The notes below the pieces were generated by a model that saw only the letters and a program-made list of their open reading frames with translations, made no database searches and had not been told where the DNA came from. This document shows, one piece after another, positions 3,298 through 59,586 of a DNA stretch of 64,000 nucleotides. Source of the stretch: Variovorax sp. PBL-E5 (lineage in GTDB: Bacteria; Pseudomonadota; Gammaproteobacteria; Burkholderiales; Burkholderiaceae_C); assembly GCF_901827185.1 (NCBI RefSeq), contig NZ_LR594673.1:434001-498000 (forward strand), written 5' to 3'. A program made the position numbers and the translations under genes. Each line of letters opens with the position of its first letter. Position 1 is the stretch's first letter.

Positions 3298-3780
3298 TGG
3301 CGCAGAGGCTGCAAAGCGTGGGCGAGCTGTTCAAAGGGCGGCACTTCGAGAGAGAGATCACGTGTTGTGCGTTCGCTGGTACCAGCGCTTCAAGCTGAGC
3401 CTTCGCGACCTCGTGGAGATGATGACCGAGCGCGGCCTGGTATTGGCCCACACCCCGATCATGCGCGGGGTGCAACGATTCGTGCCCGAGTTCGAGAAGC
3501 GCTGGAATCGATTTGCTCGCAAGGCCGGTCGTTCGCGGCGCGTCGACGAAACCTACGTGAGAATCCGCGGCAGATGGACCTATCTATACCGTATACCGGG
3601 CTGCCGATCGAGTCGAGACGTGAAGTCGCGCACCAAGCCCATGCTCGGCTTCAAGGTCTTCGATCGCGCGGCGGTAACAATCGCTGGCATCGAGCTGCTG
3701 CATCGCATTCGCAAAGGTCAGTTCAAGCCCGGTCGACTGCGCCCTGCGGGCCAAGCCGCGAAGCGCGTGCTCGCCACTTG
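3298..3780 (+). pseudogene. IS6-family transposase, decayed (type 1)
   Basis: The N-terminal LFKGRHFEREI segment starts at 3298. One base is missing near 3357-3362, shifting into the frame that reads LCVRWYQRFKLSLRDLVEMM, the IS6 helix-turn-helix. The first DDE aspartate (VDETY) is present near 3546. After TYLYR (about 3592) roughly the central third of the protein is deleted and the sequence resumes at VKSRTKPMLGFKVF and the C-terminal IRKGQFKPG. The second DDE aspartate region is therefore gone. At least one frameshift plus an internal deletion make it inactive. It lies directly behind the truncated DUF2182 gene. Confidence 0.85.
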
Positions 3781-3804
3781 CCCAGAGGCGCCACGCAAGA
3801 TCGT

Positions 3805-4087
3805 CCCAACCAGCTGCAAAGCTGTCCAGCTGCCAAGGCCGAGATTCCTGAGCTTGCGGCCGTGCGGCACGTGTTCGTGAAGGCCTGTGCGCGCGTGAAC
3901 AACCGCGCCGAAAACAGCCATCAGCCCTCGCGAGCGCGAGCGGCGCATGGGAGGCTTTCGCCGGCCCGAGCGCTCGCAGAACTTTCTATCGAGCTTCGGT
4001 TCTATCCACCAGCACTTCGCGCTCAAGCACCATCTGTTGCGCGCCTCGCTCTACCGCAAACAACTGGCCGCGCGCTTCGACGCCTAG
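3805..4087 (+). pseudogene. second, different IS6/IS240-like transposase, C-terminal fragment
   Basis: Only the C-terminal half remains: QLQSCPAAKAEIPEL, then VNNRAENSHQP (the region of the last acidic catalytic residue). A frameshift near 3928 follows, after which the frame reading RERERRMGGF runs through ALKHHLLRASLYRKQL to the natural stop TAG at 4085-4087. This sequence family differs from the type 1 relic upstream, whose C-terminus is of the MLGFKVF/IRKGQ type, so two IS copies were spliced together here. No N-terminal part is present. The IS right end lies downstream. Confidence 0.8.
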
Positions 4088-4114
4088 CGCCCTTTCACCG
4101 ACGTCGCCCAAACG

Positions 4115-4185
4115 CCGTGCGCCGCCTTCTGAGAGATCCATCTCCAGACCTTTTTCAACCCGCCATCGCTAACGTGACAAAGCCG
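4115..4185. repeat. 71-bp direct repeat, copy 1 (probable IS right end)
   Basis: Bases 4115-4185 are identical to 29478-29548 in the same orientation. The complementary strand of the outer edge begins GGCTTTGTCACG, reminiscent of the GGC...TGT start of IS6-family terminal repeats. With the transposase stop at 4087, this fits the 3' end of the type 2 element. The matching left end was not found upstream. Confidence 0.85.
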
Positions 4186-8112: not shown

Positions 8113-8132
8113 ACTGCGGGCAAGCCGCGTTC
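8111..8132. terminator. stem-loop shared by convergent ligase and IclR genes
   Basis: GAAC-T-GCGG and CCGC-GTTC form an 8-bp stem with one bulged T and a 5-base loop exactly across the 18-bp gap, overlapping both stop codons. No long T-tract follows on either strand. A bidirectional terminator is plausible from its position. Confidence 0.35.
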
Positions 8133-9012
8133 AGTGCCGCCGCGCCCACGCGTCGGGCAGCGGCTGCGGGGGCTCGGCCTCGGCGTTGGCCAGCCGCTCT
8201 TTCATCTGCGCCACCAGCTCCGCCAGGCGCGGGCCGATGTCGTCGAACAAGCGAGCGTGCGACGACGCTTCCGCGGTGATCGCGCAATTGAAGACGTAGG
8301 GCTCGCCCTGGTCGGGCAAGTGGATGGGTGCGGCCACCACATGCACGCTGGGTCGCACGAGCCCTTCGTGCACGCAAAAGCCCAGGCGCGCGACCTGTTC
8401 GCGCGAGCGCTCGATGCGGCTCGCCGTCGCCTCCCATTCGTCGGGCATCGATGTGCGGATGTCCGACAGCAGCGACTCGCGCGTGCCCTGCGGCAACGCG
8501 GCAAGGAACGCATCGCCCATGCACGAGCGCCCGAGCGCGAACGTCTTGCCGATGTCCGAGATCCAGCCTGCCGATTCGACGCGCTTGGCCGTGTGCACGT
8601 AGACCATGTTCAGGCCGTCGCGCACGCCGAGCGACACCGCGCCGCCCACCGCGTCGGCCAGTTCGCGCATCGGTGTGCGGGCCGCCTGCCGCAGCTTGAT
8701 GTTGGCCAGAAGCGGATGCGCCATCGACAGGACCGCACGGCCGAGCACGTACTTGCCGTACTTGCCCGCCTCGGGCAGGAAATGCAGGAAACCCAGGCTG
8801 GTGAGCGTGTAGGTCAGCCGCGAGACGGTGGCCTTGGGCAGGCCCGTGCGCTGGCTGATTTCCTTGTTGCCGAGCACGGGCGCTTCGGCGCTGAACGCGC
8901 GCAGCACGTCCAGGCCGCGCGCGAGCGTGATGGCGAACTGGCGGTCGCCCACATGCGCGCCGCCGGCCTCGTCGAACGGCTCTTCCGGAAGATCGGGCGG
9001 GTTTCGGGTCAC
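8131..9012 (-). CDS. IclR family transcriptional regulator
   Basis: 293-aa regulator. The N-terminal winged helix is at residues about 28-90 (LARGLDVLRAF, then ISQRTGLPKATVSRLTYTL as recognition helix). The C-terminal effector domain follows, with a typical HTAKR and a late FVHEGLVRPSVHVVAAPI strand. It is convergent with the ligase and downstream of the 9100-10248 dehydrogenase. A copy of the cluster's palindromic motif lies 34 bp upstream of its start, consistent with autoregulation. It is related to the second IclR gene at 12366, with a near-identical DNA-binding layout (TVSRLTYTLT in both), so the two may read the same operator. The effector is unknown. Confidence 0.93.
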   Translation of the reverse strand: MTRNPPDLPEEPFDEAGGAHVGDRQFAITLARGLDVLRAFSAEAPVLGNKEISQRTGLPKATVSRLTYTLTSLGFLHFLPEAGKYGKYVLGRAVLSMAHPLLANIKLRQAARTPMRELADAVGGAVSLGVRDGLNMVYVHTAKRVESAGWISDIGKTFALGRSCMGDAFLAALPQGTRESLLSDIRTSMPDEWEATASRIERSREQVARLGFCVHEGLVRPSVHVVAAPIHLPDQGEPYVFNCAITAEASSHARLFDDIGPRLAELVAQMKERLANAEAEPPQPLPDAWARRH

Positions 9013-9099: not shown

Positions 9100-10248
9100 T
9101 CAGCCGGAAATGTCCATGAAGCTCGCGCCCAGGAGCTCCTTGACCACGGTGAGCTTCATCACGTTGATCGTGCCGCCGGTGAACGTAAGCCCCAGGACGT
9201 CGCGCAGCCGCCGCTCCAGCGGCAGTGCCTTGAGGTAGCCGCTGGCGCCGAACATCTGCAGGCAGTCCTGGATGGCGGCGATCGAATCAGTGATGCCGCT
9301 CCACTTGGCCATGCCGGCGATGCGCGCCGCGTTTTCGCCGCGCGTGTTCATCCACAGCCCGCGGTAGGCCAGCATGCGGCCCGCCTCCACACGCGTGGAG
9401 TGCTCCACCAGCGGAAAGCTGATCGCCTGGTAGTGGCCGATGGCCTTGCCGTACACCTCTTTTTTCTTGACGAACTCGATCGTGTCGTCGAGCACCTGCT
9501 GCGCGGCGCCCAGTGCGTTGAGCGCGGACAGGCACCGCGACACGTTCCACCGCGCATAGAGCACGGCTTTGCCCTGCCCTTCGCCGCCGAGCGTGTGTTC
9601 CACCGGCACGCGCACGTCCTTCAGGCGCACGATGCCGAGCTGGTGCGAGCGCAGCCCCATCTCGGGCATGAGCTCGCAGCTCACGCCGGGCGCGTCGGCC
9701 GGCACGCGGATGAACGTGATGCGCGAGCTGCCGTCGGGCTGCTGCACCTTCGCGGTGACGCCCATCAGCGCGGCGCCGGGCATGAGGCTCACGTGGATCT
9801 TCTCGCCATTGATGACGAAGTGGCCGTCTTCCACGCACGCGGTGGTCGACATGTTCGACAGGTCCGAGCCCGCTTCCGTCTCGGATGTTGCGATGCACAC
9901 CAGCCGCTCGCCGCTGATCACGCCGCGCGCGGCCTCCTCGCCCCACCCGGGCACGAGGTTGGGCAGCGTGTTCTGCATCGAGCAGATCATGGCGCAGCTG
10001 TTGTCCACGCGCGCGATCTCCTCGACCGCGATGCCCAGCATGATGTAGTCGCCTTCCATGCCGCCCAGGCGCTTGGGCGCGATGATGCCCAGAAGGCCCG
10101 TCTTGCCCATGTGGCGGATGGCCTCCACCGGAAACCGTTCCTTCTCGTCGCACTCCACCACGTAAGGCTGGATCGCCTCCCGCGCGAAGCCACGGACGAA
10201 AGCGCGAAACGACTCATGCTCTTGCGAAAACGAATAATCCAGTGCCAT
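9100..10248 (-). CDS. acyl-CoA dehydrogenase
   Basis: 382-aa FAD-dependent acyl-CoA dehydrogenase passing electrons to ETF. The ATG at 10248 is preferred over an in-frame upstream ATG because AAGGAG (in ATCAAGGAGAGC) lies just before it and the family start MALDYSFSQEHESFR follows. Visible motifs are CIATSETEAGSDLSN (flavin/substrate loop, near residues 125-140), RWNVSRCLSALNALG, and a C-terminal FTGGTINVMKLTV segment. In the last, the position where many family members have the catalytic Glu (EGT) reads TGGT; the base may instead be the helix-G glutamate type, which I cannot settle by eye. It is divergent from a Bug receptor at 10385 with a palindromic operator candidate between. Confidence 0.9.
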   Translation of the reverse strand: MALDYSFSQEHESFRAFVRGFAREAIQPYVVECDEKERFPVEAIRHMGKTGLLGIIAPKRLGGMEGDYIMLGIAVEEIARVDNSCAMICSMQNTLPNLVPGWGEEAARGVISGERLVCIATSETEAGSDLSNMSTTACVEDGHFVINGEKIHVSLMPGAALMGVTAKVQQPDGSSRITFIRVPADAPGVSCELMPEMGLRSHQLGIVRLKDVRVPVEHTLGGEGQGKAVLYARWNVSRCLSALNALGAAQQVLDDTIEFVKKKEVYGKAIGHYQAISFPLVEHSTRVEAGRMLAYRGLWMNTRGENAARIAGMAKWSGITDSIAAIQDCLQMFGASGYLKALPLERRLRDVLGLTFTGGTINVMKLTVVKELLGASFMDISG

Positions 10249-45219: not shown

Positions 45220-45338
45220 TGGTTCTGGTGCGAAGTAAATGTCCGAGCGTCCGCGTTCTTGCGAATGGATTGTTGATGGAGGAAGGTCGACGTCTTTGCA
45301 TCGAGGATGTTGACGATGGAACCGGAGAAGGATGCCTA

Positions 45339-45779
45339 CGCTACAAGCTGAGCCTACGTGACCTGGTGGAGATGATGGCCGAGCGCGACCTTGCCATCGC
45401 TCCCACCACGATCATGCGCTGGGTCCAGCGTTTCGTGCCCGAATTAGAGAAGCGTTGGAATCGCGTTGCCCGCAAGGCCGGTCGGTCGTGGCGCGTCGAC
45501 GAGACCTATGTGAAGATCCGCGGCAAGTGGACCTATCTCTACCGAGCCGTCGATCGGGAAGGTCAGACCGTCGACTTCCGGCTGAGCATCACGCTGGACG
45601 GCTACGCCGCCTCGCATCGTGCCGTGCGGGAATTGAACTATCCGCGCAGAACGCCGGTTGGAAGGACACGCCGCTGAGATCGCATCCGCAAGGGCCAGTG
45701 CAATCTCAACCGACTGCGCATTGCGAGCCAAGCTGCGCCCGTGATCTGGAACGCGGTGCTTTCGGCTGGACTGGCGCGA
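45339..45779 (+). pseudogene. IS6-family transposase, internally deleted (type 1)
   Basis: RYKLSLRDLVEMMAERDL begins at 45339; the usual first about 20 residues are missing. The first DDE Asp (VDETYVKIRGKW) is intact. After FRLS (45587) about 20 codons are missing before ITLDGYAASHRAVRE (to 45632). Then a larger gap precedes RIRKGQCNLNRLR (45681) and the natural C-terminal VIWNAVLSAG (to about 45779). The deletions remove the last catalytic Glu region, and the frame is broken at 45633-45680. Same family as the 3298 and 24561 relics. The rest of 45208-45828 has no supported gene. Confidence 0.82.
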
Positions 45780-48714: not shown

Positions 48715-49626
48715 TCAGTGGGCCAGCGCCAGGCCGGGTCGCGGCCAGTCGAGGGCCACCAGCTCGCCGTTGCCCGACAGGGTCACGTAGGCCGTGCGCC
48801 GATCGGGACCGCCGAAGCAGATGTTGGTCACGTAGGTCTCGCCGTCGATCGGCACGTGTTCCATCCGCTGCCCTTGCGGCGACACGACGGTGATGCCGGC
48901 CTTGATGATGGTGGCGATGCAGACGTTGCCGCCGGCCTCGACCGCCAGCGAATCGAAGCGCATGTACTCGGACGCGGCATGCAGCAGGCGCCCGCCGTTG
49001 GGCGATGCCGGCCAGGGCATCGGCGCGATCTCGCCAGGCGCATCGATGGCCCAGGCCCACAGCCGCGCTGTGTCGGTCTCGGCGACATACAGGGTCTTGC
49101 CGTCGGGCGCGAGGCCGATGCCGTTGGGCGTGATGAGCGGAAACACGACCTCGCGGATCAGGCTGCCGTCGGCGCGCGCGTAGTAGACGCTGCCGCGGTC
49201 GGTATCGCGCTCGCGCACCTTGCCGTGGTCGGTGAACCAGAAGCCGCCGTGGTGGTCGAAGACGAGATCGTTCGGTCCCTTGAGCCGCACGCCGTTGCAG
49301 CTGTCGTAGAGCGTGGTGCACGCGCCGGTTTTCAGATCGACACGCTGGATCGATCCGCTGACGTACGAAGGCGCGGTGCCGTGCGGCAGCAGCCAGCGGC
49401 CGCGCGGCACCCAGTTCAACCCGCCGTTGTTGCACACGTAGAGCGCGCCATCGGGACCCAGCGCCGCGCCGTTCGGCCCACCGCCGGTCTCGGCGCAGGT
49501 GCGGCGCATGCCCTTCGCGTCGATGCCGGTGATCACGCCGCCGCCGACTTCCACGCACAGCACGCTGCCGTCGTCCAGCACGACGGGCCCTTCGGGGAAT
49601 CTCAACTTGTCCAGCACTGTCCTCAC
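48715..49626 (-). CDS. SMP-30/gluconolactonase family protein
   Basis: 303-aa six-bladed beta-propeller hydrolase. Glu12 in RFPEGPVV, the Asn of GPNDLVFDHHGGFWFTD and an Asp in YVAETDTARL-type segments are the usual divalent-metal ligands. It acts on lactones; in catabolic operons such enzymes open sugar or ring-derived lactones. It is first gene of the leftward operon, divergent from the ligase at 49800 across a region with shared motif copy i. Confidence 0.9.
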   Translation of the reverse strand: MRTVLDKLRFPEGPVVLDDGSVLCVEVGGGVITGIDAKGMRRTCAETGGGPNGAALGPDGALYVCNNGGLNWVPRGRWLLPHGTAPSYVSGSIQRVDLKTGACTTLYDSCNGVRLKGPNDLVFDHHGGFWFTDHGKVRERDTDRGSVYYARADGSLIREVVFPLITPNGIGLAPDGKTLYVAETDTARLWAWAIDAPGEIAPMPWPASPNGGRLLHAASEYMRFDSLAVEAGGNVCIATIIKAGITVVSPQGQRMEHVPIDGETYVTNICFGGPDRRTAYVTLSGNGELVALDWPRPGLALAH

Positions 49627-49718
49627 AAAAACCTCCGGGCCGCGCGCACGGCGGCACGCTTCAGTCTCGCAAAAGTTTAGGCCGCGCAGCCGTCATTCGA
49701 CGGCACGCGCTGCGTTCA

Positions 49719-49740
49719 ACATGTATGTGCTGAATTGCCG
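49719..49740 (+). promoter_or_regulatory. cluster D shared motif, copy i
   Basis: ACATGTATGTGCTGAATTGCCG lies between divergent SMP-30 and ligase genes, ending 59 bp before the ligase ATG. Its last 16 bases match the consensus ATGTGATGAATTGCCG with one change. Confidence 0.55.
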
Positions 49741-49799
49741 TTCGCAGGGCAAACGTCATTGCGTGCCGGGCCCGTGCCGCCTCAGAGTGGCATCACTTC

Positions 49800-51338
49800 A
49801 TGCTGACCCTCAAGACTGTCATCGAGCGCAACGAGCGCTGGTACCCCGACGTCCAGGCCTACGTGCAGGGCGAGCGCGTCCTCACCCATCGCCAGTACGC
49901 GCAGCGCGTGCGCAAGCTCGCCGCGGCGCTTGCCGCCACAGGCCTCGCGCGCAACGGCCGCGTCGCCGTGCTCTCGATGAACTCGATCGCGTACTGCGAG
50001 ATCTACGGCGCCTGCGAATGGGCCGGCTTCATGGCCGTCACGCTGAATTTCCGGCTCGCCGCGCCCGAGATCGCATGGATCCTCGCCGACAGCACGCCCG
50101 CGGTGCTGTTCTTCGAGGCGTCCTTCGCGCCGATGGTGGCGACGCTTCGTCTTGCGCTGCCCGCCATGCGCTGCGTCTGCATCGGCGAGGCCATGGCATG
50201 GGCCGAGGACTGCGAGGCGCTGCTTGCCCGCGGCGACGAGGCAGGCCCGCCTTTCGGGCCGACGCCGGACGACTACGCCTCGCTCATCTACACCAGCGGC
50301 ACCACGGGCCGGCCCAAGGGCGTGCTGTCGACGCAAGCCACCGTGCTGGCCACGGCCGAAATGCTGGCGCAGGAGATGGACATGGCGGCGCACAGTCGCT
50401 CGCTGCTGATCACGCCGCTCTTCCACGTGGGCGCCAGGAATGTGCGGGCGGCGCAGGCCTGGCGCTACGGCACCTGCGTGATCGAGCGCGGCTTCGATGC
50501 GTCGCGCCTGGCCGGCCTCGTGCAGCGCGAGCGCATCAACACCATGTTCCTCGTCGCAGCCCAGCTGCAGATGCTGCTGGACCAGCCCGACATCGACAGC
50601 CACGACCTGAGCAGTCTCGTCACCGTCGGCATGGCCGGCGCGCCGATCCCCGTGCCGCTGCTGGAGCGCGCCATCGCGCGCATGGGCCGCGCCATCATGG
50701 TCCAGTACGGCATGACCGAAGGACAGATCGCCAGCCTCTATCGCCACGAGCTGCGCCCGCGCGGCACGCCCGAGGAGATCCGGCGCATCGGCTCGGTCGG
50801 CCACTCGCTGCCGCACGGCCAGCTGCGCGTGGTGGACGAGCGCGGCGCCGATTGCGCACCGGGCCTGCCCGGCGAGGTCTGGTTCCGCAACGCATCGGTG
50901 ATGGACGGCTACTGGAACAACACCGCGGCCACGCTGGAGGCGCTCGCCGGCGGCTGGATGCGCACCGGCGACATCGGCGTGCTCGACGATGCGGGCTATC
51001 TCTTCCTGATCGATCGCAAGAAGGACGTGATCATCTCGGGCGGCGAGAACATCTACAGCCGCGAGGTGGAGGAAGCCTTGCACCGCCACTCGGACGTGAC
51101 CGAGTCGGCGGTCATCGGCATCCCCGACGTGCGCTGGGGCGAAGCGGTGAAGGCCTACGTGGTGCGCAAGCCCGGCGCGGCCGTCAGTGCCGCCGAGCTG
51201 ATCGAATTCGCCGCCACGCAGATCGCCCGCTACAAATGCCCGAAGCAACTCGTCTTCGTCGACGCGCTGCCGCGCCTGGCGACCGGCAAGGTGAGCAAGG
51301 TGGCGCTGCGCGAAGCCCACCGCGCCGAAGGCCGCTGA
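49800..51338 (+). CDS. acyl-CoA synthetase (AMP-forming)
   Basis: 512-aa AMP-dependent ligase: P-loop YTSGTTGRPKGV near residues 163-174, YGMTEGQIAS, GWMRTGDIG, DRKKDVIISGGENIYSREVE and catalytic Lys in LATGKVSK near the C-terminus. It is alone on the plus strand, convergent (8-bp gap) with the leftward aldolase/dehydrogenase operon. It probably activates the cluster D acid. It is a separate lineage from the PaaK-like ligases, and the motifs are complete. Confidence 0.93.
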   Translation: MLTLKTVIERNERWYPDVQAYVQGERVLTHRQYAQRVRKLAAALAATGLARNGRVAVLSMNSIAYCEIYGACEWAGFMAVTLNFRLAAPEIAWILADSTPAVLFFEASFAPMVATLRLALPAMRCVCIGEAMAWAEDCEALLARGDEAGPPFGPTPDDYASLIYTSGTTGRPKGVLSTQATVLATAEMLAQEMDMAAHSRSLLITPLFHVGARNVRAAQAWRYGTCVIERGFDASRLAGLVQRERINTMFLVAAQLQMLLDQPDIDSHDLSSLVTVGMAGAPIPVPLLERAIARMGRAIMVQYGMTEGQIASLYRHELRPRGTPEEIRRIGSVGHSLPHGQLRVVDERGADCAPGLPGEVWFRNASVMDGYWNNTAATLEALAGGWMRTGDIGVLDDAGYLFLIDRKKDVIISGGENIYSREVEEALHRHSDVTESAVIGIPDVRWGEAVKAYVVRKPGAAVSAAELIEFAATQIARYKCPKQLVFVDALPRLATGKVSKVALREAHRAEGR

Positions 51339-51346
51339 GATTCATT

Positions 51347-52393
51347 TCACGTCCCCGCCAGCAGGGGCCAGACCTCGTCCGCCTGACAGCCGGCGAACGC
51401 GGCGGCCAGCTGGCGCCGCCAGTAGGGAACGCTGCCGAACTGGTCGCGCCAGGCCATCAGGCGCCGGGTGCGAAAGTGCAGCACGTATTCGTAGCTGAAG
51501 CCGATCGCGCCATGCACCTGGTGCGACAGCGCGAACACGGTGTCGGCCGCATCGCCCAGGCGCGAGCGCGCCGCCGCCACGATCACCCGGTCATCGGGGG
51601 CGGCGATCGCCGCATCCAGCACCGCATGCGCGGCGACCACCGCCGAGGCCAGTTCCGCGATCATCTGCTGCACCACCTGGAACTTGCCGATCTCGCGGCC
51701 GAACTGCTTGCGCTCCAGCGCGTAGGCCGTGGTGCGCTCCAGGCACCAGCGCATCGCACCGATCATCTGCGCGCCACGCAGCAGGGCCGCACGGCGCAGC
51801 AAGGCATCGAAATCCATGCCGTCGATCGGCAGCCAGTCGACGGCTGGCGGCAGCTCGAAATCGGAGGCGGGCTCGCCCGCCGCATCCGCGATCGAATCCT
51901 GCAGCCGCAGGCCGGACGTGGGCAGCACGGCCAACCGTGCGCCGGCGCCGGTGCCCGCGCGCGCGACCACCAGCACCTGCGCCGACGCACCCGCCCACGC
52001 CGCGCCACGCATGCGCGTCGGCAAGGCCTCGCCGTCGGCGAACAGGAGGCACAGCGGCCCGGCCGCCGGTTCGCGGCCGGCCAGTGCCAGCAGTGCGTTG
52101 CCCATGATCAGTTCCAGCACCGGTACCGGCAGCGCATGCCGGCCGGCCGCCTGCAGGATCGCCGCGGCACCGGCCAGCCCGGCGCCGATGCCGCCTGCGT
52201 CCTCGGGCACCAGCGCGAGGCCGATGCCGGCCTCCTCCACCGCCGTCCAGATCGCTTGCGGAAACGTGCCGTCCTCGGCCGATTCGATGCGCGCCGGCAT
52301 GGCGATGTCGCCGAACAGCCGCTCGGCCATGTCGGCGAACTGCGCCGTGTCGTTATCGTTATCGTTGTCGTTGTCCTGGCTCATGTCGTTCAT
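51347..52393 (-). CDS. acyl-CoA dehydrogenase, subunit B of a split pair
   Basis: 348-aa dehydrogenase-fold protein. The N-terminus has a curious Asp-Asn repeat (residues 6-14). The middle domain is abbreviated, and the C-terminal domain shows ERKQFGREIGKFQVVQQMIAEL and VHGAIGFSYEYVLHFRTRRL, then ends without the catalytic loop. The ATG overlaps the stop of the partner gene (ATGA, 52390-52393). It is probably the non-catalytic half of a heteromeric enzyme. Convergent with the ligase gene. Confidence 0.88.
   Translation of the reverse strand: MNDMSQDNDNDNDNDTAQFADMAERLFGDIAMPARIESAEDGTFPQAIWTAVEEAGIGLALVPEDAGGIGAGLAGAAAILQAAGRHALPVPVLELIMGNALLALAGREPAAGPLCLLFADGEALPTRMRGAAWAGASAQVLVVARAGTGAGARLAVLPTSGLRLQDSIADAAGEPASDFELPPAVDWLPIDGMDFDALLRRAALLRGAQMIGAMRWCLERTTAYALERKQFGREIGKFQVVQQMIAELASAVVAAHAVLDAAIAAPDDRVIVAAARSRLGDAADTVFALSHQVHGAIGFSYEYVLHFRTRRLMAWRDQFGSVPYWRRQLAAAFAGCQADEVWPLLAGT
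52351..52374. repeat. hexanucleotide tandem repeat encoding Asp-Asn repeats
   Basis: Four units of CGTTRT (two CGTTAT, two CGTTGT) near the 5' end of the 51347-52393 gene. They encode Asp-Asn dipeptides on the minus strand. Unit changes would keep the reading frame. Confidence 0.8.
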
Positions 52394-53553
52394 CTCAGGC
52401 CCAGTCCGCGCGCGATCACGCCGCGCAGGATCTCGCCGGTGCCGCCGCGGATGGTGAAGGCCGGCGCATAGCGCTGCGCGCTGGCCAGCAGCGCCCGCAG
52501 CGCGGGCAGATCGGCGCCTTCGAACAGCGCGTCGGCATGGACGATGCTGCGCACCGTGCGCACGATCTCCTGCTCGAGCCGCGTGCCGATGTCCTTGGCG
52601 ATCGAGGCCTCCAGGTTCGGCGTCTTGCCGGCCTGCAGCATGCTGGCGATCGACAGCGAGATCTGCCGCACGGCCATCAGCTGGCCGAACAGCCGGCCGA
52701 TCTCCATCGCACTCGCGTCCGAGGGACGAGGGCCCGCGGCCTGCACCAGCTCGGCCAGCAGGCGAAAGCTGCTGAGCCAGCGTTCGGGGCCGCTGCGCTC
52801 GTAGGCCAGCTCGGCGCTAACCTGGTTCCATCCATGGCCCGGCTGGCCCACCACGTCGGCATCGGACACGAACACGTCCTGGAACACCACCTCGTTGAAA
52901 TCCTGCACGCCCACCATGCTGCGGATCGGGCGGATGGCCACGCCCGGGCTGTCCAGCTTGATGAGGATCTGCGTGAGGCCCGACTGCCGGTTGCCTTCGT
53001 CGGCCCTGGCCGTGCGCACCAACGCGATCATGTAGTCGACGCGGTGCGCGTTGGTGGTCCAGAGCTTGGCGCCGTTGATGCGCCAGCCGCCGTCGACGCG
53101 CGTGCCGCTGGTGCGCAGCGAGGCCAGGTCGGAACCCGAGTCGGGTTCGCTCATGCCGATGCAGAAGGCCAGTTCGCCGCGCGCGATGCGCGGCAGGTAT
53201 TCCTGCTTCTGCGCCTCGGTGCCGAACTTCAGCAGCACCGGTCCGCTCTGCCGGTCCGAGATCCAGTGCGCACCGACGGGCACGCCGGCGGCCAGCAGTT
53301 CCTCCGTCACCACGTAGCGCTCCAGCGCCGTGCGCTCGTGGCCGCCGTAGCGGCGCGGCCAAGTCATGCCGATCCAGCCCCGCGCGGCGATCCTGCGCGA
53401 GACCTCGGGCGAGAAGCCGAGCCCGACCTTGTCGGGGTACGGCAGGCCGCCGGCGGCGCGCTCGGCGGCGACGAAGCCGCGGACCTCGCGGCGCAGCGCC
53501 ATCAGCTCGCCGGGCAACGCGGGCAGTTCGAGGTGCAGGGAAGAAACGGTCAT
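52390..53553 (-). CDS. acyl-CoA dehydrogenase, subunit A of a split pair
   Basis: 387-aa dehydrogenase starting at 53553, where the family N-terminus begins. It has IGMSEPDSGSDLASLRTSG, RINGAKLWTTNAHRVDY and the helix-G segment ELAYERSGPERW, whose glutamate sits where isovaleryl-CoA dehydrogenase has its base. The C-terminal loop reads FTIRGGTGEILRGVIARGLG, with Arg where medium-chain enzymes have Glu. It is very close in pattern to the 59587 protein, so the two pairs are paralogous. It is second in the aldolase-dehydrogenase-dehydrogenase operon. Confidence 0.9.
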   Translation of the reverse strand: MTVSSLHLELPALPGELMALRREVRGFVAAERAAGGLPYPDKVGLGFSPEVSRRIAARGWIGMTWPRRYGGHERTALERYVVTEELLAAGVPVGAHWISDRQSGPVLLKFGTEAQKQEYLPRIARGELAFCIGMSEPDSGSDLASLRTSGTRVDGGWRINGAKLWTTNAHRVDYMIALVRTARADEGNRQSGLTQILIKLDSPGVAIRPIRSMVGVQDFNEVVFQDVFVSDADVVGQPGHGWNQVSAELAYERSGPERWLSSFRLLAELVQAAGPRPSDASAMEIGRLFGQLMAVRQISLSIASMLQAGKTPNLEASIAKDIGTRLEQEIVRTVRSIVHADALFEGADLPALRALLASAQRYAPAFTIRGGTGEILRGVIARGLGLR

Positions 53554-53602
53554 GAACGGTCGAGAAGAGAAGGTGCGGGCGCGACGGCGCGCCATGCGAC
53601 GC

Positions 53603-54367
53603 TCATTCGCGCCACGAGCTGTCGATCTGGTCGAGCATGCGCAGCAGCGCCGTCCATTCCAGCGTGAAGGTGCGGCCGTCCTGCGTCTTGCGGCGGTCGC
53701 GCGCGGTATCGAATTGCTGGGCCGTGGTCGCGGACACGGCATCGCTCAGCACCGACAGCGGCGTGCCGCCCGCGAGCGCGGCCACCTGGACCTGGCAGGC
53801 GCGCTCAAGGTAGTGCGTCTCGATGAAGGCCTCGGCCACGCTGCGCCCGCAACCCAGGATGCCATGGTTGCGCAGCAGCATCGAGAGGTTGTCGCCGAGG
53901 TCGTGCGCCAGGCGCCGGCGTTCCGCATCGTCGTCGGCCACGCCCAGGTACTCGTGGTACGACAGCCGGCCGTGGAAGCGCAGCGCGTGCTGGCTGATCA
54001 TCCGCAGGCCCGCCTGCTGGGCCGCGACGGCGATGCCCGCCGTGGTGTGCGTGTGGATCACGCAGGCGATGTCCGGTCGCGCCTCGTGCACTGCGCTGTG
54101 GATGAAGAAGCCCGCGCGGTTGATCGGCGCATTGATCTCCGTGACGGGATTGCCCCTGAGGTCCACCCGCACCAGGTCGCTGGCGCGGATCTCATGGAAC
54201 ATCAGGCCGTAGGGATTGATGAGGATGGCTTCCTCCTCGCCCGGAATGCGGCCCGACACGTGCGTGTAGATCAGGTCCGTCATGCGGTAGTGCGCAAGCA
54301 GCCGGTAGCACGCGGCCACGTCCAGCCGCACTTGCCATTCGGCGTCCGACATCGATGAAGGTTTCAT
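53603..54367 (-). CDS. class II aldolase/adducin family protein
   Basis: 254-aa protein with the class II aldolase fold. Zinc ligands are visible in CVIHTHTTAGIAVAA (two His) and a third His further on (RNHGILGCG); the AAYLERACQ-type helix appears as THYLERACQVQ. The family includes fuculose-phosphate aldolase and decarboxylases or epimerases. In acid-degradation clusters it may decarboxylate or retro-aldol cleave an intermediate. It starts the leftward operon, with 49 bp to the next gene; an alternative ATG is 15 bp inside. Divergent from a Bug gene across motif copy ii. Confidence 0.88.
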   Translation of the reverse strand: MKPSSMSDAEWQVRLDVAACYRLLAHYRMTDLIYTHVSGRIPGEEEAILINPYGLMFHEIRASDLVRVDLRGNPVTEINAPINRAGFFIHSAVHEARPDIACVIHTHTTAGIAVAAQQAGLRMISQHALRFHGRLSYHEYLGVADDDAERRRLAHDLGDNLSMLLRNHGILGCGRSVAEAFIETHYLERACQVQVAALAGGTPLSVLSDAVSATTAQQFDTARDRRKTQDGRTFTLEWTALLRMLDQIDSSWRE

Positions 54368-54422
54368 TGATGCGAAGCGTAAGCCCGGGCCCTCGCATTC
54401 GCCAGTTGCCGCGCACGATTTC

Positions 54423-54443
54423 CACATACGTGATGAATTGCCG
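54423..54443 (+). promoter_or_regulatory. cluster D shared motif, copy ii
   Basis: CACATACGTGATGAATTGCCG lies in the 163-bp gap between the divergent aldolase and Bug genes. It shares GTG-TGAATTGCCG with copy i and GTGATGAAT with copy iii. Confidence 0.6.
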
Positions 54444-54530
54444 CCGACTCTGTGCGCGGCACGGTACACGCCGCATGCGGCCGTAGCATTCGTCGCAACG
54501 GGACTGATCCCACGCACAGAGGAAACGACC

Positions 54531-55544
54531 ATGAATCCAGCCATCCCGCGCGGCGCCTTCGCGCAGCGTGCCCTTCGCCGCCATCTGCTGGGCCTCGCAC
54601 TGGCCCTTGCCGTCAGTCCCTTCGCCTTCGCGCAGCCGGCCGCATGGCCGGCACAACCGATCCACCTGATCGTCCCCTTCCCCGTCGGCGGCCCGACCGA
54701 CATGGCCGCGCGGCTGGTGGCGGAGAAGCTCACGCATTCGCTCGGCCAGCCGGTCATCGTGGACAACCGCGGCGGCGCGGCAGGCATGCTGGGCACGCTG
54801 GCGCTGGCCCAATCGAAGGGCGACGGCTACACCATCGGCCTGATCGGCAACGGCCTCGTCACGCTGACGCCCTACGTACGCAAGGACGTCGGCTTCGATC
54901 CGCTCAAGGACCTGATCCCGCTCTCCAAGGCCGTCGACATTCCGCTGGTCGTGGTGGAGAACGTTGCGCTGCCGCCGAAGACCATGAAGGAGTTCATCGC
55001 CTATGCCAGGGCCAACCCGGGCAAGCTCAGCTACGGTTCGGACGGCACGGCGTCGCTCACCCACCTGAGCTTCGAGATGTTCAAGCAGGCGCAGGACATC
55101 CACCTGGTGCACATCCCCTACCGCGGCACCGCGCAGATACTGACCGATCTGCTGGGCAACCAGATCCAGGTATCCATGAGCGGCATCGCCGGGCCGCTGC
55201 CGCACATCAAGTCGGGCAAGCTGCGCGCACTGGCAGTCACCAGCGCCAGGCGCGTGCCCGCGCTGCCCGACACGCCGACGATGATCGAGCTGGGCATGAA
55301 GGACTTCGACATCACCACCTGGTTCGCCTTCTTCGCGCCGGCCGGCGTGCCTGCGCCGGTGGCCGCGAAGCTCAACGAACACCTGGGGCGCGCGCTGCGG
55401 GAGCCCGACGTGATCGAGAAGCTGCGCGGCGCGGGCATGGAAGCCGCGCCTTCCTCGCAGGCGGAGATGGACCGCATCGTGCGCCGCTACATCGCGCAAT
55501 GGCAGGGCGTGATCAAGAGTGCGAACATCAAGCTGGACGATTGA
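54531..55544 (+). CDS. Bug family substrate-binding protein
   Basis: 337-aa periplasmic receptor. The start at 54531 follows AGAGGAAACGACC. It has a signal peptide with cleavage near residue 35 (PFAFAQ), IHLIVPFPVGGPTDMAARLV (PVGG turn) and IPYRGTAQILTDLLGNQIQ. It is single-gene, convergent with DUF2889 (19-bp gap). Its operator region holds motif copy ii, placing it in the cluster D regulon. Confidence 0.93.
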   Translation: MNPAIPRGAFAQRALRRHLLGLALALAVSPFAFAQPAAWPAQPIHLIVPFPVGGPTDMAARLVAEKLTHSLGQPVIVDNRGGAAGMLGTLALAQSKGDGYTIGLIGNGLVTLTPYVRKDVGFDPLKDLIPLSKAVDIPLVVVENVALPPKTMKEFIAYARANPGKLSYGSDGTASLTHLSFEMFKQAQDIHLVHIPYRGTAQILTDLLGNQIQVSMSGIAGPLPHIKSGKLRALAVTSARRVPALPDTPTMIELGMKDFDITTWFAFFAPAGVPAPVAAKLNEHLGRALREPDVIEKLRGAGMEAAPSSQAEMDRIVRRYIAQWQGVIKSANIKLDD

Positions 55545-55563
55545 CCGGCGCCCTCACCCGCCG

Positions 55564-56166
55564 TCACCCACCGACCGCATCCCGTGCGCCGGCCTTCGGC
55601 GCGACGTAATGCTCGGGGTAGATGCGGCGCACCATCTCGCCGCTCTTGCCGTAGCCCAGGCAGGCGCCGACCACCGGCGGTGGTCCGCCGTCGGGCGGCA
55701 CGCCGTAGACGCGCTCGGCCGCGGCACGATCGTTCCATCGGATCTGGCTGGACAGCGTCTGGATGGCCACCGTCGCCATGGTCTGGAACAGCGTCAGCAC
55801 ATGCGTGCAGCCGGCCTCGCCGCCGACGCGCGCCTGCAGCTCACGATGAAAGCCCGCGCCCAGCCTGAGCCCGACCAGGCGCTGGAAATTCGGCACGGCG
55901 CCGGGGCATTCGGGGAAGGGATGGCTGTCGATGCGGACCTCGACCTCGCGCAGCGCGCGCGCATCGTCCATCGCGAAGCGCACCCACATCTCGTGGAATT
56001 TGCCGCCGGCCGGTACCGAGGGGCGAAACGGTGTCGGGCTTTCGTAGGTGCGCGTGTCCACCAGGCTGGCCTCCACTTCCCACAGGCCGTCGTCGCGCCG
56101 GAAGCCTTCGCAGCGGATGGTGCGGTCGTTCAGCGGCTGGCGGGGCTGGGGGTGTGAAAGCGGCAT
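55564..56166 (-). CDS. DUF2889 domain-containing protein
   Basis: 200-aa cytoplasmic protein with the DUF2889 pattern: RTIRCEGFRRDDGLWEVEASLVD at residues about 15-37, then FHEMWVRFAMDDARALREVEVR and FPECPGAVPNFQRLVGLRLG. The molecular function of DUF2889 is unknown. It occurs in operons of acyl-CoA metabolism, as here. It is divergent from the truncated crotonase across motif copy iii, so it seems to be a regulon member. No membrane segment or signal. Confidence 0.8.
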   Translation of the reverse strand: MPLSHPQPRQPLNDRTIRCEGFRRDDGLWEVEASLVDTRTYESPTPFRPSVPAGGKFHEMWVRFAMDDARALREVEVRIDSHPFPECPGAVPNFQRLVGLRLGAGFHRELQARVGGEAGCTHVLTLFQTMATVAIQTLSSQIRWNDRAAAERVYGVPPDGGPPPVVGACLGYGKSGEMVRRIYPEHYVAPKAGARDAVGG

Positions 56167-56220
56167 GGGATCTCCGGTCCGCCCTCAGTCTAAGGGCCGT
56201 CGGCGCGCGCAAAGCAACAG

Positions 56221-56240
56221 GCATGTGATGAATGGCGCCG
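56221..56240 (+). promoter_or_regulatory. cluster D shared motif, copy iii
   Basis: GCATGTGATGAATGGCGCCG between divergent DUF2889 and crotonase-fragment genes, ending 51 bp before the latter's ATG. Confidence 0.5.
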
Positions 56241-56291
56241 GTGCGCGCATCCACGCTTTTGCGCCGTCCCGCTTTGCGGCCCACTGAGGGG

Positions 56292-56606
56292 ATGGAAGAC
56301 CCTGTGCATTTCGAAACCCTGCCCGGCCGCGTCGGCCTCGTCACGCTCGACCGGCCCGCGGCGCTCAACGCGCTGGACATGCGCAGTGTCCGCCTGCTGC
56401 GCGAAGGCATCCGTGCGATGGAGGCGGATGCGGGCATCGACGTCATCGTGCTCACCGCCTGCGGCGAGCGCGCCTTCTGCGTGGGCGTGGACCTGAAGGA
56501 GCGTCAGCGCCTGGGCGACGAGGCATCGCGCGACTTCGCCGCGATCCACGAATGCTATGCGGCCGACCCTTCGCGGCAGCTCGCGGGCTTCGGCCGGAAG
56601 GCCTGA
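56292..56606 (+). pseudogene. enoyl-CoA hydratase, N-terminal fragment
   Basis: 104 codons encode the first part of a crotonase: VHFETLPGRVGLVTLDRP and the first oxyanion-hole region TACGERAFCVGVDLKERQ. The product then ends with a non-family tail (QLAGFGRKA) and a stop at 56606, where a functional family member continues about 150 residues with the second oxyanion loop and the catalytic residues. No continuing similarity is visible in any frame before the convergent cupin gene at 56618. I infer a deletion remnant. The promoter region with motif copy iii survives. Confidence 0.75.
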
Positions 56607-56617
56607 GCGGCCGCGGC

Positions 56618-57391
56618 TCAGGCGCCGGTGCCGGGCGTGCGCCGCGGCATCCTCTGCGGCTCGGGGTCGAGCGCGAAGGCCGGGTACTGCAACACCAGGA
56701 CTTCCAGGCCCGCGGCACCGGCATGCAGCGCCATCGGCGCCTCGTCCCCCGAATGCCAGACACAGGCCGGCGGTCCCAGCGCTTCGCCGTGCGCGACGAG
56801 CGCGCCCGACACCACCACGTGATAGCGCCCGCCGCTGTCGCGCTGGGCAGGCGCGGTGGCGCGGCCGCACGGCGGCACGCGCACCACCCACGCGGCCAGG
56901 CCGCTGGCGTCCGATGCGATCAGCACTTCAGTGATCGGCTGCGCCAGCCCGGCGAGCGAGGCCGAGGTTGACACATGGATCGGGCCCACGCTTTCCTGCC
57001 GCTTGCGCAGGCCCTTGCGCATCTTCTCGCGCGACTCGGGCAGATACCACGCACCCGGATCGGTGACGGTGCGCAGCGTGAGGTAGTCCAGGCCCTCGGG
57101 GCCGGCGACGAGCGGGCCATAGCCGGCCTCGCGCGAAGCGTAATGGATGCTCACCGCGTCGAGCGCATGCGCGCCCAGCGTGCCGCCGCCGCGCGTCACC
57201 ACCTGGAACTGCTCTTCGAGATGGAAGTGCGTGGGTAGCACCCAGCCGGGCTGCTGATGAACCAGGAAGGCCTGCGGCGCGGGGCGCGGACCGGCCTCGG
57301 TCTCGATCAGGTACTCGGTGTAGCCGCGGAAGTTGCCTTCATCGAAGACGCGGGTGCGGGTCTTTCTTTCGACGATACCGATGCGTTCCAT
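56618..57391 (-). CDS. cupin-type hypothetical protein
   Basis: 257-aa protein starting at 57391 (MERIGIVERKTRTRVFDEGN). A cupin motif is visible at HFHLEEQFQVVTRGGGTLG near residues 56-74, and a second weaker beta-barrel half near the end (HSGDEAPMALHAGAAGLEVLVLQ) suggests a bicupin. A much longer open frame upstream runs antisense through the OYE and hydratase genes and is rejected. No family function known to me. It is divergent from the OYE-type gene across motif copy iv, so it is likely part of the cluster D regulon. Confidence 0.75.
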   Translation of the reverse strand: MERIGIVERKTRTRVFDEGNFRGYTEYLIETEAGPRPAPQAFLVHQQPGWVLPTHFHLEEQFQVVTRGGGTLGAHALDAVSIHYASREAGYGPLVAGPEGLDYLTLRTVTDPGAWYLPESREKMRKGLRKRQESVGPIHVSTSASLAGLAQPITEVLIASDASGLAAWVVRVPPCGRATAPAQRDSGGRYHVVVSGALVAHGEALGPPACVWHSGDEAPMALHAGAAGLEVLVLQYPAFALDPEPQRMPRRTPGTGA

Positions 57392-57475
57392 TTGCCTTGC
57401 CTTCCGGATTCCTTGCCGCCAGTATGGCCACATGGCGGAACGAGACAACGCCGGCGCCGAGCCCGCCGCGCATTG

Positions 57476-57498
57476 CACATGCATGTGATATTTCGCCG
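57476..57498 (+). promoter_or_regulatory. cluster D shared motif, copy iv
   Basis: A perfect 12-bp palindrome CACATGCATGTG (57476-57487) followed by ATATTTCGCCG, between divergent cupin and OYE genes, 43 bp before the OYE ATG. The palindrome suggests the left half of the motif is the protein-binding core. Confidence 0.55.
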
Positions 57499-57541
57499 CG
57501 CCCGCTTGTGCTGCCGCATGACCGTCGGCTAGTGTCGGCCG

Positions 57542-58657
57542 ATGGAACCCACGGCTTCCCGGCTCTTCTCTCCTTTCGACTTGCGCGGCGTTCGCTTTCG
57601 CAACCGCATCGGCGTGTCGCCCATGTGCATGTATGCCTGCGGCCCGGACGGCCTGGCCACGCCCTGGCACATGGTGCATCTGGGCATGCGCGCACCGGGC
57701 GGCGCCGGGCTCGTCGTGGCGGAAGCCACCGCCGTCGCGCCGCACGCGCGCATCTCGCCGGCGGACCTCGGCCTGTGGTCGCGCGCGCATGCCGACGCGC
57801 TCGCGCCGATCACGCAATTCATCTCCGGCCAGGGCTGCGTGCCCGGCATCCAGCTGGCGCACGCCGGGCGCAAGGGCAGCACGCGCAGCCCCTGGATCGG
57901 ACGCGATGCGGTGCCCGAATCGGAAGGCGGCTGGCAGGTGCAAGCGCCCTCGCCTCTTCTCTTTTCGCCGCTGAACGCGATGCCGCGCGAGATGAGCGAG
58001 GCGGACATCGCACGCACGATCGGCGAGTTCGGCGCGGCGGCGGGCCTCGCCTTCGAGGCCGGCTTCCGGTACCTCGAACTGCACCTGGGCCACGGCTACC
58101 TGGCGCACCAGTTTCTCTCGCCGCTCAGCAACCGGCGCACCGACGGCTGGGGCGGCGATTTCGAGGGCCGCACGCGCTTCGCGCGCGCGCTGGCGAAGGC
58201 CGCGCGCGCGGCCTGGCCGGACGAACTGCCGCTGGCCGCACGCCTGTCGATCACCGACTGGGTCGAGGGCGGCTGGACGGCCGACGAAGCCGTGCGGCTG
58301 GCCGGGCTGCTGGGCGAAGCCGGTGTCGACCTCGTCGTGTGTTCGAGCGGCGCCATCGTTCCCGGCGCCATGCCGCCGGACGGTCCCATCATGCAGTTGC
58401 CCTTCGCAGCCCGTGTGCGCGCGCAGGCCGGCGTGGCCTCCGGCGCCGTGGGCCAGATCACCGAGGCCGCACAGGCGGAACAGATCATCGCAAGCGGCGG
58501 CGCCGACCTCGTGTTCCTGGCCCGCGCCATGCTGCGCGATCCGTTCTGGGCCGTGCATGCGGCCGAGGCGCTCGGCGCACCAGCGCCCTGGCCCATCGCC
58601 TATGGCCGCGCCGTAGGCCAGCGGCAGGGGCGCGTGCAGCGGCCTCAGCGGCCGTAG
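57542..58657 (+). CDS. NADH:flavin oxidoreductase, Old Yellow Enzyme family (YqjM-like)
   Basis: 371-aa FMN-dependent TIM-barrel ene-reductase. VSPMCMYA near residues 22-29 includes the YqjM-type regulatory Cys. IQLAHAGRKG is near 103-112. ELHLGHGYLAHQFLSPLSNRRTDGWGG near 180-206 holds the catalytic His. GAVGQITEAAQAE and LARAMLRDPFWA bind the FMN phosphate. It reduces or desaturates an enone/enoyl intermediate; OYE relatives also act in alicyclic and steroid ring degradation. The 3' end overlaps the convergent hydratase by 13 bp. Confidence 0.9.
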   Translation: MEPTASRLFSPFDLRGVRFRNRIGVSPMCMYACGPDGLATPWHMVHLGMRAPGGAGLVVAEATAVAPHARISPADLGLWSRAHADALAPITQFISGQGCVPGIQLAHAGRKGSTRSPWIGRDAVPESEGGWQVQAPSPLLFSPLNAMPREMSEADIARTIGEFGAAAGLAFEAGFRYLELHLGHGYLAHQFLSPLSNRRTDGWGGDFEGRTRFARALAKAARAAWPDELPLAARLSITDWVEGGWTADEAVRLAGLLGEAGVDLVVCSSGAIVPGAMPPDGPIMQLPFAARVRAQAGVASGAVGQITEAAQAEQIIASGGADLVFLARAMLRDPFWAVHAAEALGAPAPWPIAYGRAVGQRQGRVQRPQRP

Positions 58658-59439: not shown

Positions 59440-59517
59440 CTCTGGTGTCCTCTCAGGTGCCGGCGAGTCTGGCGGGCACGCCGCCAAAAGTCCAATACAC
59501 AAAGGCCGCCGGGCCAT

Positions 59518-59531
59518 GCGGTATTCATATG
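59518..59531 (-). promoter_or_regulatory. weak fifth copy of cluster D motif
   Basis: On the minus strand CATATGAATACCGC partly matches the motif (ATGAATNNCCG) in the 147-bp gap between the hydratase and dehydrogenase genes. The same gap holds an 8-bp inverted repeat, GTCCAATA (59490) and TATTGGAC (59549). Tentative. Confidence 0.25.
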
Positions 59532-59586
59532 GCGCCGCTGCACTTCGCTATTGGACAGTGCGCATGGCCGGCGATAACCTGCCCCG

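Follow-up and report, generated by a model that had tools for sequence, protein, structure and literature searches.

Transcription factors of the IclR family, in the portion of the comparative survey by Suvorova and Gelfand (2021; PMC8222616) drawn on here, are described as binding dimeric palindromes that lie mostly within 80 bp of gene starts and serve catabolic targets. Tandem sites occur in many groups and three-box sites in 32; the factors generally control themselves plus one or two adjacent operons, and the consensus is given as GKTYCRYW3-4RYGRAMC for group 1 and TGRAACAN1-2TGTTYCA for group 2. Here we analyze a motif shared by divergent promoters in a 64,000-nucleotide stretch of Variovorax sp. 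PBL-E5 (the window; contig NZ_LR594673.1, positions 434001-498000). With a probability of roughly three in four, judged from sequence comparison, the motif acts as the operator for a factor of the IclR family encoded beyond the window at 83253-84056 (coordinates above 64000 continue the window numbering, as contig position minus 434000), which would control the genes of an acid-degrading island.

Four copies of the motif (sites i-iv) lie on one strand in divergent gaps of the window, a few bases from where the first-pass annotation had placed them, and end 43-87 bp before the plus-strand start codons (59, 87, 52 and 43 bp, respectively). The perfect 12-bp palindrome reported for copy iv is CACATGCATGTG. 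The single consensus proposed for the four fared less well: all four sequences exist, but only copy i matches it within 3 mismatches, because the spacing of the left half varies between copies and the tail of copy iv deviates (GATATTTCGCCG). The motif is a palindrome plus a one-sided tail, not a single linear consensus. Two inverted half-sites (consensus ATGTGAT) form the palindrome, and the tail, GAATTGCCG, faces one of the two divergent genes. No third box with half-site sequence was seen by eye in the tail, which is not a half-site repeat.

The copies were then compared with chance expectation and with the rest of the genome. Scored with a leave-one-out matrix built from the other three sites, sites i, ii and iii exceed the best score in each of 40 Markov-simulated windows, but the score of site iv is reached in 4 of the 40, so that the first-pass concern about random occurrence is answered for three copies and not clearly for the fourth. 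A matrix from the window sites only, run over the next 32 kb, ranked two new sites first and second (v, 30.7; vi, 30.0), followed by site ix at 17.4. We refer to sites i-vi as strong and to sites vii-x as weaker candidates. Every strong site, when omitted from a matrix of the six, still falls within the top six of the 96 kb of own region scanned. Searching the own genome (7.09 Mb) with a 17-mer at up to 3 mismatches returned 14 places, against 0 for the reversed motif used as control. All four places with one or two mismatches lie in the island (sites i, ii, v and vi), the ten at 3 mismatches include site iii, and site iv is absent from the list. Site x has a half-site match at random level (5/7), but its tail is recognizable.

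Each of the six strong copies faces one gene and ends 43-98 bp before it, the tail pointing to the plus-strand gene at sites i-iv and to the minus-strand gene at sites v and vi. This uniform placement, together with a tail element, TTGCCG, that to our reading resembles the -35 box of a high-GC promoter, would also suit a promoter element common to the gaps, or upstream DNA left over from a duplication. We regard such an origin as highly improbable: a promoter scan of 49600-57700, limited to the sigma-70 type, found no sigma-70-like promoter, the flanks of the six strong sites share nothing outside the motif by eye, and the palindrome recurs beside IclR homologues in distant genomes.

All strong and weaker sites lie inside one catabolic island (45834-89648), which aligns to plasmid 3 of Variovorax sp. 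SRS16 (NZ_LR594668) in four blocks at 95-97% identity. According to the SRS16 gene table, the island is edged there by an IS110 transposase on the left and an IS6 transposase on the right, and it is probably transferable. Its content comprises acyl-CoA ligases, pairs of acyl-CoA dehydrogenases, enoyl-CoA hydratases, a CaiB transferase, a thiolase with an OB-fold protein, MaoC, SDR and Bug proteins. Only two regulators are annotated in it, one of IclR type ('helix-turn-helix') and one LysR; none is annotated in the part collinear with 45.8-64 kb, in line with the first-pass statement that this interval encodes no regulator.

The SRS16 comparison reveals a footprint at the sites. Across the six strong sites the two islands disagree at 2 of 166 positions, versus 62 of 832 in the rest of the gaps (one-sided Fisher P 6e-4), with gap limits drawn by hand to a precision of about 20 bp. 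The two differences fall in sites i and iii; site iv is unchanged although ~10% of its remaining gap differs, and the tail of site x is recognizable in SRS16 too. The annotated SRS16 start of the gene downstream of site iii is 12 bp further on. Among 121 relatives searched for the linear motif, own genome included, 32 have a match at no more than 2 mismatches; outside the own genome none exceeds four, a number reached by a single genome from another family (G104; control 1), and other genomes of the genus have two at most. Read by eye, 20 such loci in relatives showed no island-like context, and several were the same coding-looking sequence.

The gene at 83253-84056 encodes a member of the IclR family (HTH_IclR 34.9 bits, cut-off 22; IclR_C 49.3 bits, cut-off 24). 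Its product falls far below the NCBIfam thresholds for the PcaR/PcaU/PobR subfamily (TIGR02431; 66.8 vs 284.75 bits) and for the IclR, AllR, KdgR and BhcR equivalogs (44-61 vs 275-406 bits). By sequence, its closest solved structures are an unnamed IclR-type regulator (3d3o) and a Pca-regulon regulator (8eju).

We examined 20 distinct loci encoding homologues of this protein (21 locus names, L053 and L073 being one place). The palindrome TCACRTAYGTGA was found within 1 mismatch at ten of them (L056, L057, L062, L063, L064, L068-L072), covering five lineages: a Cupriavidus clade, V. boronicumulans, Tistrella pTM1, a Rhizobiales metagenome-assembled genome and Neoroseomonas. It stands immediately before the IclR gene in Neoroseomonas terrae (L064) and likewise in the stretch before it in the Rhizobiales genome (L062); it lies ~6 kb upstream, at the head of the gene row leading to IclR, in V. 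boronicumulans (L056) and ~9 kb upstream in Tistrella pTM1 (L063). The six Cupriavidus-clade loci carry it twice, 35 bp apart, and in the two that are annotated (L057, L070) it sits between genes for an HpcH/HpaI-type lyase and an MmgE/PrpD protein. Two loci outside the ten hold related copies. N. alba (L067), whose IclR shares 191 of 244 residues with that of N. terrae (78%), has a two-mismatch copy at 9946, the exact position of the perfect L064 copy, and genome G032 (L058) has an exact copy on another contig, again between MmgE/PrpD and HpcH/HpaI-type lyase genes.

Tail-like sequence follows the palindrome at some of these foreign loci: GATGAATGCC or GATGAATCCC after a site at five of the six Cupriavidus-clade loci, and GATGAAATGGCGGG in Tistrella pTM1, compared with GATGAATTGCCG in the own island. 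These matches suggest that the tail may belong to the operator. No clear tail was seen at L072, L062, L064 or L056.

A background count gave the same association. Of 399 genomes of the order, the own one counted among them, 4 contain exact ATCACRTAYGTGAT. Besides the own genome, five have an IclR homologue at E <= 1e-30, and two of the four belong to these (Fisher P 8e-4 with the own genome left out; 1e-3 with it counted as having the IclR and no exact copy). Both IclR-bearing genomes carry the sequence flanked by MmgE/PrpD and HpcH/HpaI-type lyase genes; the remaining two have it in other gene contexts. With ten of 20 homologue loci positive against this background, the palindrome accompanies the IclR far more often than by chance, but not universally.

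A symmetric matrix built solely from the palindromes at IclR-homologue loci of other genomes was run over the same 96 kb. Its first four ranks are sites vi (19.3), ii (16.7), iii (16.0) and i (16.0), and the next match (14.4) lies inside a gene; site viii is ninth. On the SRS16 stretch the same four sites lead, with i first. The foreign palindrome and the motif read in the window therefore meet independently in four sites.

Taken together, the ranks obtained with the window matrix, the SRS16 footprint, the palindrome at IclR loci, the ranks of the foreign matrix and the confinement of the places with one or two mismatches to the island argue for the IclR protein as the reader of the sites. An IclR dimer or dimer of dimers would bind them and switch the ligase, acyl-CoA dehydrogenase, hydratase, transporter-binding and oxidoreductase genes of the island. 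The effector may be an acid or a CoA-thioester from the pathway; relief of repression is the most likely mode, and we would guess that the factor regulates itself through site ix. The comparative evidence agrees with the first-pass view of one shared operator and one regulon; the predicted regulon would be larger, with two more strong gaps and four weaker sites, and would extend to ~88.6 kb. The controlling protein was also rightly expected outside the window, where the best candidate lies 19 kb past its end. Of the types suggested for a gene just beyond 64 kb, MarR and TetR do not describe this candidate, which is an IclR, but a LysR gene adjoins it.

Several observations weigh against this assignment. 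TCACRTAYGTGA is missing within 1 mismatch at the other ten homologue loci (L058-L061, L065-L067, L073-L075); Tistrella pTM2 (44%) and G401 (45%), which rank among the nearest IclR relatives, lack the palindrome; and a single close Cupriavidus clade supplies six of the ten positive loci. Mapped onto the IclR tree, presence of the palindrome clusters only weakly, with 5 changes against a shuffled mean of 7.5 and 27 of 500 shuffles as low, G032 being counted as positive. The own genome has no exact ATCACRTAYGTGAT. At one mismatch TCACRTAYGTGA occurs in it at 21 places (control 13), of which only 2 fall within the island. For CACATGCATGTG the count is 20 (control 5), with three inside the island, and one of the three exact CACATGCATGTG copies lies outside. 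Bare palindromes are therefore not confined to the island, which is marked by palindrome plus tail. One divergent gap of the island (~59441-59586) yielded no site. Sites iv, v and vii have their half-sites 2 bp further apart than in the foreign sites and, like ix and x, fall outside the top 14 matches listed for the foreign matrix; the sites with wider spacing rest on likeness to neighboring sites and on conservation. An arrangement in which one IclR reads both spacings (CACAT-ATGTG and CACAT-GC-ATGTG), with the non-repeat box GAATTGCCG fixing orientation and singling out one gene per gap, is conceivable but rather unlikely.

The main competing assignment is to the LysR protein (84063-84983), with IclR a mere neighbor. 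LysR proteins often act on divergent promoters, and the location of this gene in the same island, directly behind the IclR gene, counts in its favor and against IclR. TCACRTAYGTGA within 1 mismatch, present at ten of the 20 IclR loci, is absent from the loci of two of the closest LysR homologues (C. metallidurans, 57%; Comamonas antarctica, 56%); they show no matrix match above 13.4 and a single CACCTGCATGTG, in C. metallidurans, a contrast that comprises 2 loci only. We consider a LysR reader improbable. The Comamonas antarctica plasmid locus (L055, 565033-585902) carries its LysR homologue in a cluster whose gene content resembles that of the island (thiolase, OB-fold, SDR, MaoC, CaiB and Bug genes), without the palindrome.

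The sites could also belong to a regulator elsewhere, either a TetR-like protein, as a TetR gene lies beside IclR and the palindromes at the Cupriavidus locus L070 (a further point against IclR), or the second IclR encoded in the window at 8131-9012. In SRS16, however, the island comes as one block that includes an IclR and a LysR. A methyltransferase gene directly precedes IclR in G032, no TetR was found among the six neighbors scanned at L064 (part of its genes), and the IclR at 8131-9012 is merely 26% identical to that of the island. A regulator elsewhere is accordingly quite improbable, and IclR at 83253-84056 remains our preferred reader. The IclR gene at 8131-9012 adjoins acyl-CoA dehydrogenase and Bug (TctC) genes.

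Table 1. Predicted operator sites, flanking genes and candidate regulators (window numbering; SRS16, Variovorax sp. SRS16).
Feature	Position	Strand	Context
Operator site i (AACATGTATGTGCTGAATTGCCG)	49715..49740	+	predicted; SMP-30 / AMP-ligase gap; SRS16 copy AACACGTATGTGCTG
Operator site ii (CCACATACGTGATGAATTGCCG)	54420..54443	+	predicted; class II aldolase / Bug gap; identical in SRS16
Operator site iii (AACAGGCATGTGATGAATGGCGCC)	56215..56239	+	predicted; DUF2889 / crotonase-remnant gap; one SRS16 difference
Operator site iv (CACATGCATGTGATATTTCGCCG)	57475..57498	+	predicted; gap before OYE gene; perfect 12-bp palindrome
Site v	77344-77371	-	predicted; acetate-CoA ligase family / NTF2-like gap; divergent
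Site vi	80523-80549	-	predicted; acyl-CoA dehydrogenase / enoyl-CoA hydratase gap; divergent
Site vii	86977-86994		weaker candidate; perfect 16-bp palindrome without tail, upstream of nitronate monooxygenase gene
Site viii	69733-69751		weaker candidate; between Bug and thiolase genes
Site ix	83189-83210	-	weaker candidate; MaoC / IclR gap, 42 bp before IclR start
Site x	88587-88612	+	weaker candidate; NTF2 / SDR gap
SMP-30/gluconolactonase family protein	48715..49626	-	divergent partner at site i; collinear annotated SRS16 gene
AMP-binding acyl-CoA ligase	49800..51338	+	tail side of site i
Class II aldolase/adducin family protein	53603..54367	-	partner at site ii
Tripartite tricarboxylate transporter (Bug) binding protein	54531..55544	+	tail side of site ii
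DUF2889 protein	55564..56166	-	partner at site iii
Crotonase remnant	56292..56606	+	tail side of site iii; 744-bp gene in SRS16
Hypothetical protein ('cupin' at first pass)	56618..57391	-	partner at site iv
NADH:flavin oxidoreductase (OYE family)	57542..58657	+	tail side of site iv
IclR gene	83253-84056	+	~19 kb past window end, inside island
LysR gene	84063-84983	+	directly behind IclR gene

Some features of the region stand apart from the regulatory question. The crotonase remnant is ~440 bp short relative to SRS16, the missing part lying between two alignment blocks with a 10-base overlap, and its upstream site is retained. The 'cupin' label of the gene at 56618-57391 could not be confirmed, as its product has no Pfam or NCBIfam match. 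A transposase fragment marks the left edge of the island at 45228-45677 (Pfam DDE_Tnp_IS240, 58 bits), and the stretch 3761-4184 is an 80% match to the SRS16 IS6 region. In Tistrella pTM2 (L073/L053), the IclR gap contains TCATATATGA in place of the palindrome, possibly a diverged operator.

Linking the 44-kb catabolic island of this soil bacterium to a single candidate regulator and operator opens a way to find its substrate through expression tests. Compared with the operators described by Suvorova and Gelfand (2021; PMC8222616, in the portion drawn on here), the island sites share the palindrome form, the closeness to gene starts and the catabolic targets. Their sequence fits neither main group: scored against the two consensus patterns alongside 300 random stretches of the region, none of the ten island sites exceeds the random maximum, although for group 1 sites i and ii score at the 95% level of the random stretches (13/18), and for group 2 site viii scores above it (11/15). 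The half-site GTGTGRY of TsdR from Rhodococcus jostii (GTGTGRYTSSMRTCAYAC, Table 1 of PMC8222616) resembles, in our reading, the island half-site ATGTGAT, with the half-sites in the opposite order. In the TsdR order no island site is at the random 95% level (12/18); with the order swapped, sites v and viii pass it (11/14 vs 10) and five more equal it. A search of paper texts with three palindrome strings returned no bacterial operator among the matches listed (title and start of abstract), and the 14-mer was in none listed.

In the same source (PMC8222616), the operators of PcaU, PobR, HmgR and IphR combine a palindrome with an extra one-sided box, as in the island; unlike their external box, the tail GAATTGCCG is by eye no half-site repeat. 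The tandem centers in Cupriavidus are 35 bp apart versus the published 18-22, and the island has six strong divergent gaps where self-control plus one or two operons is usual (PMC8222616). The predicted system would add an IclR operator type that recurs in beta- and alphaproteobacteria. The kind of system is ordinary; what would be new is a member with a large regulon and with an operator that fits neither of the two main IclR consensus groups in print.

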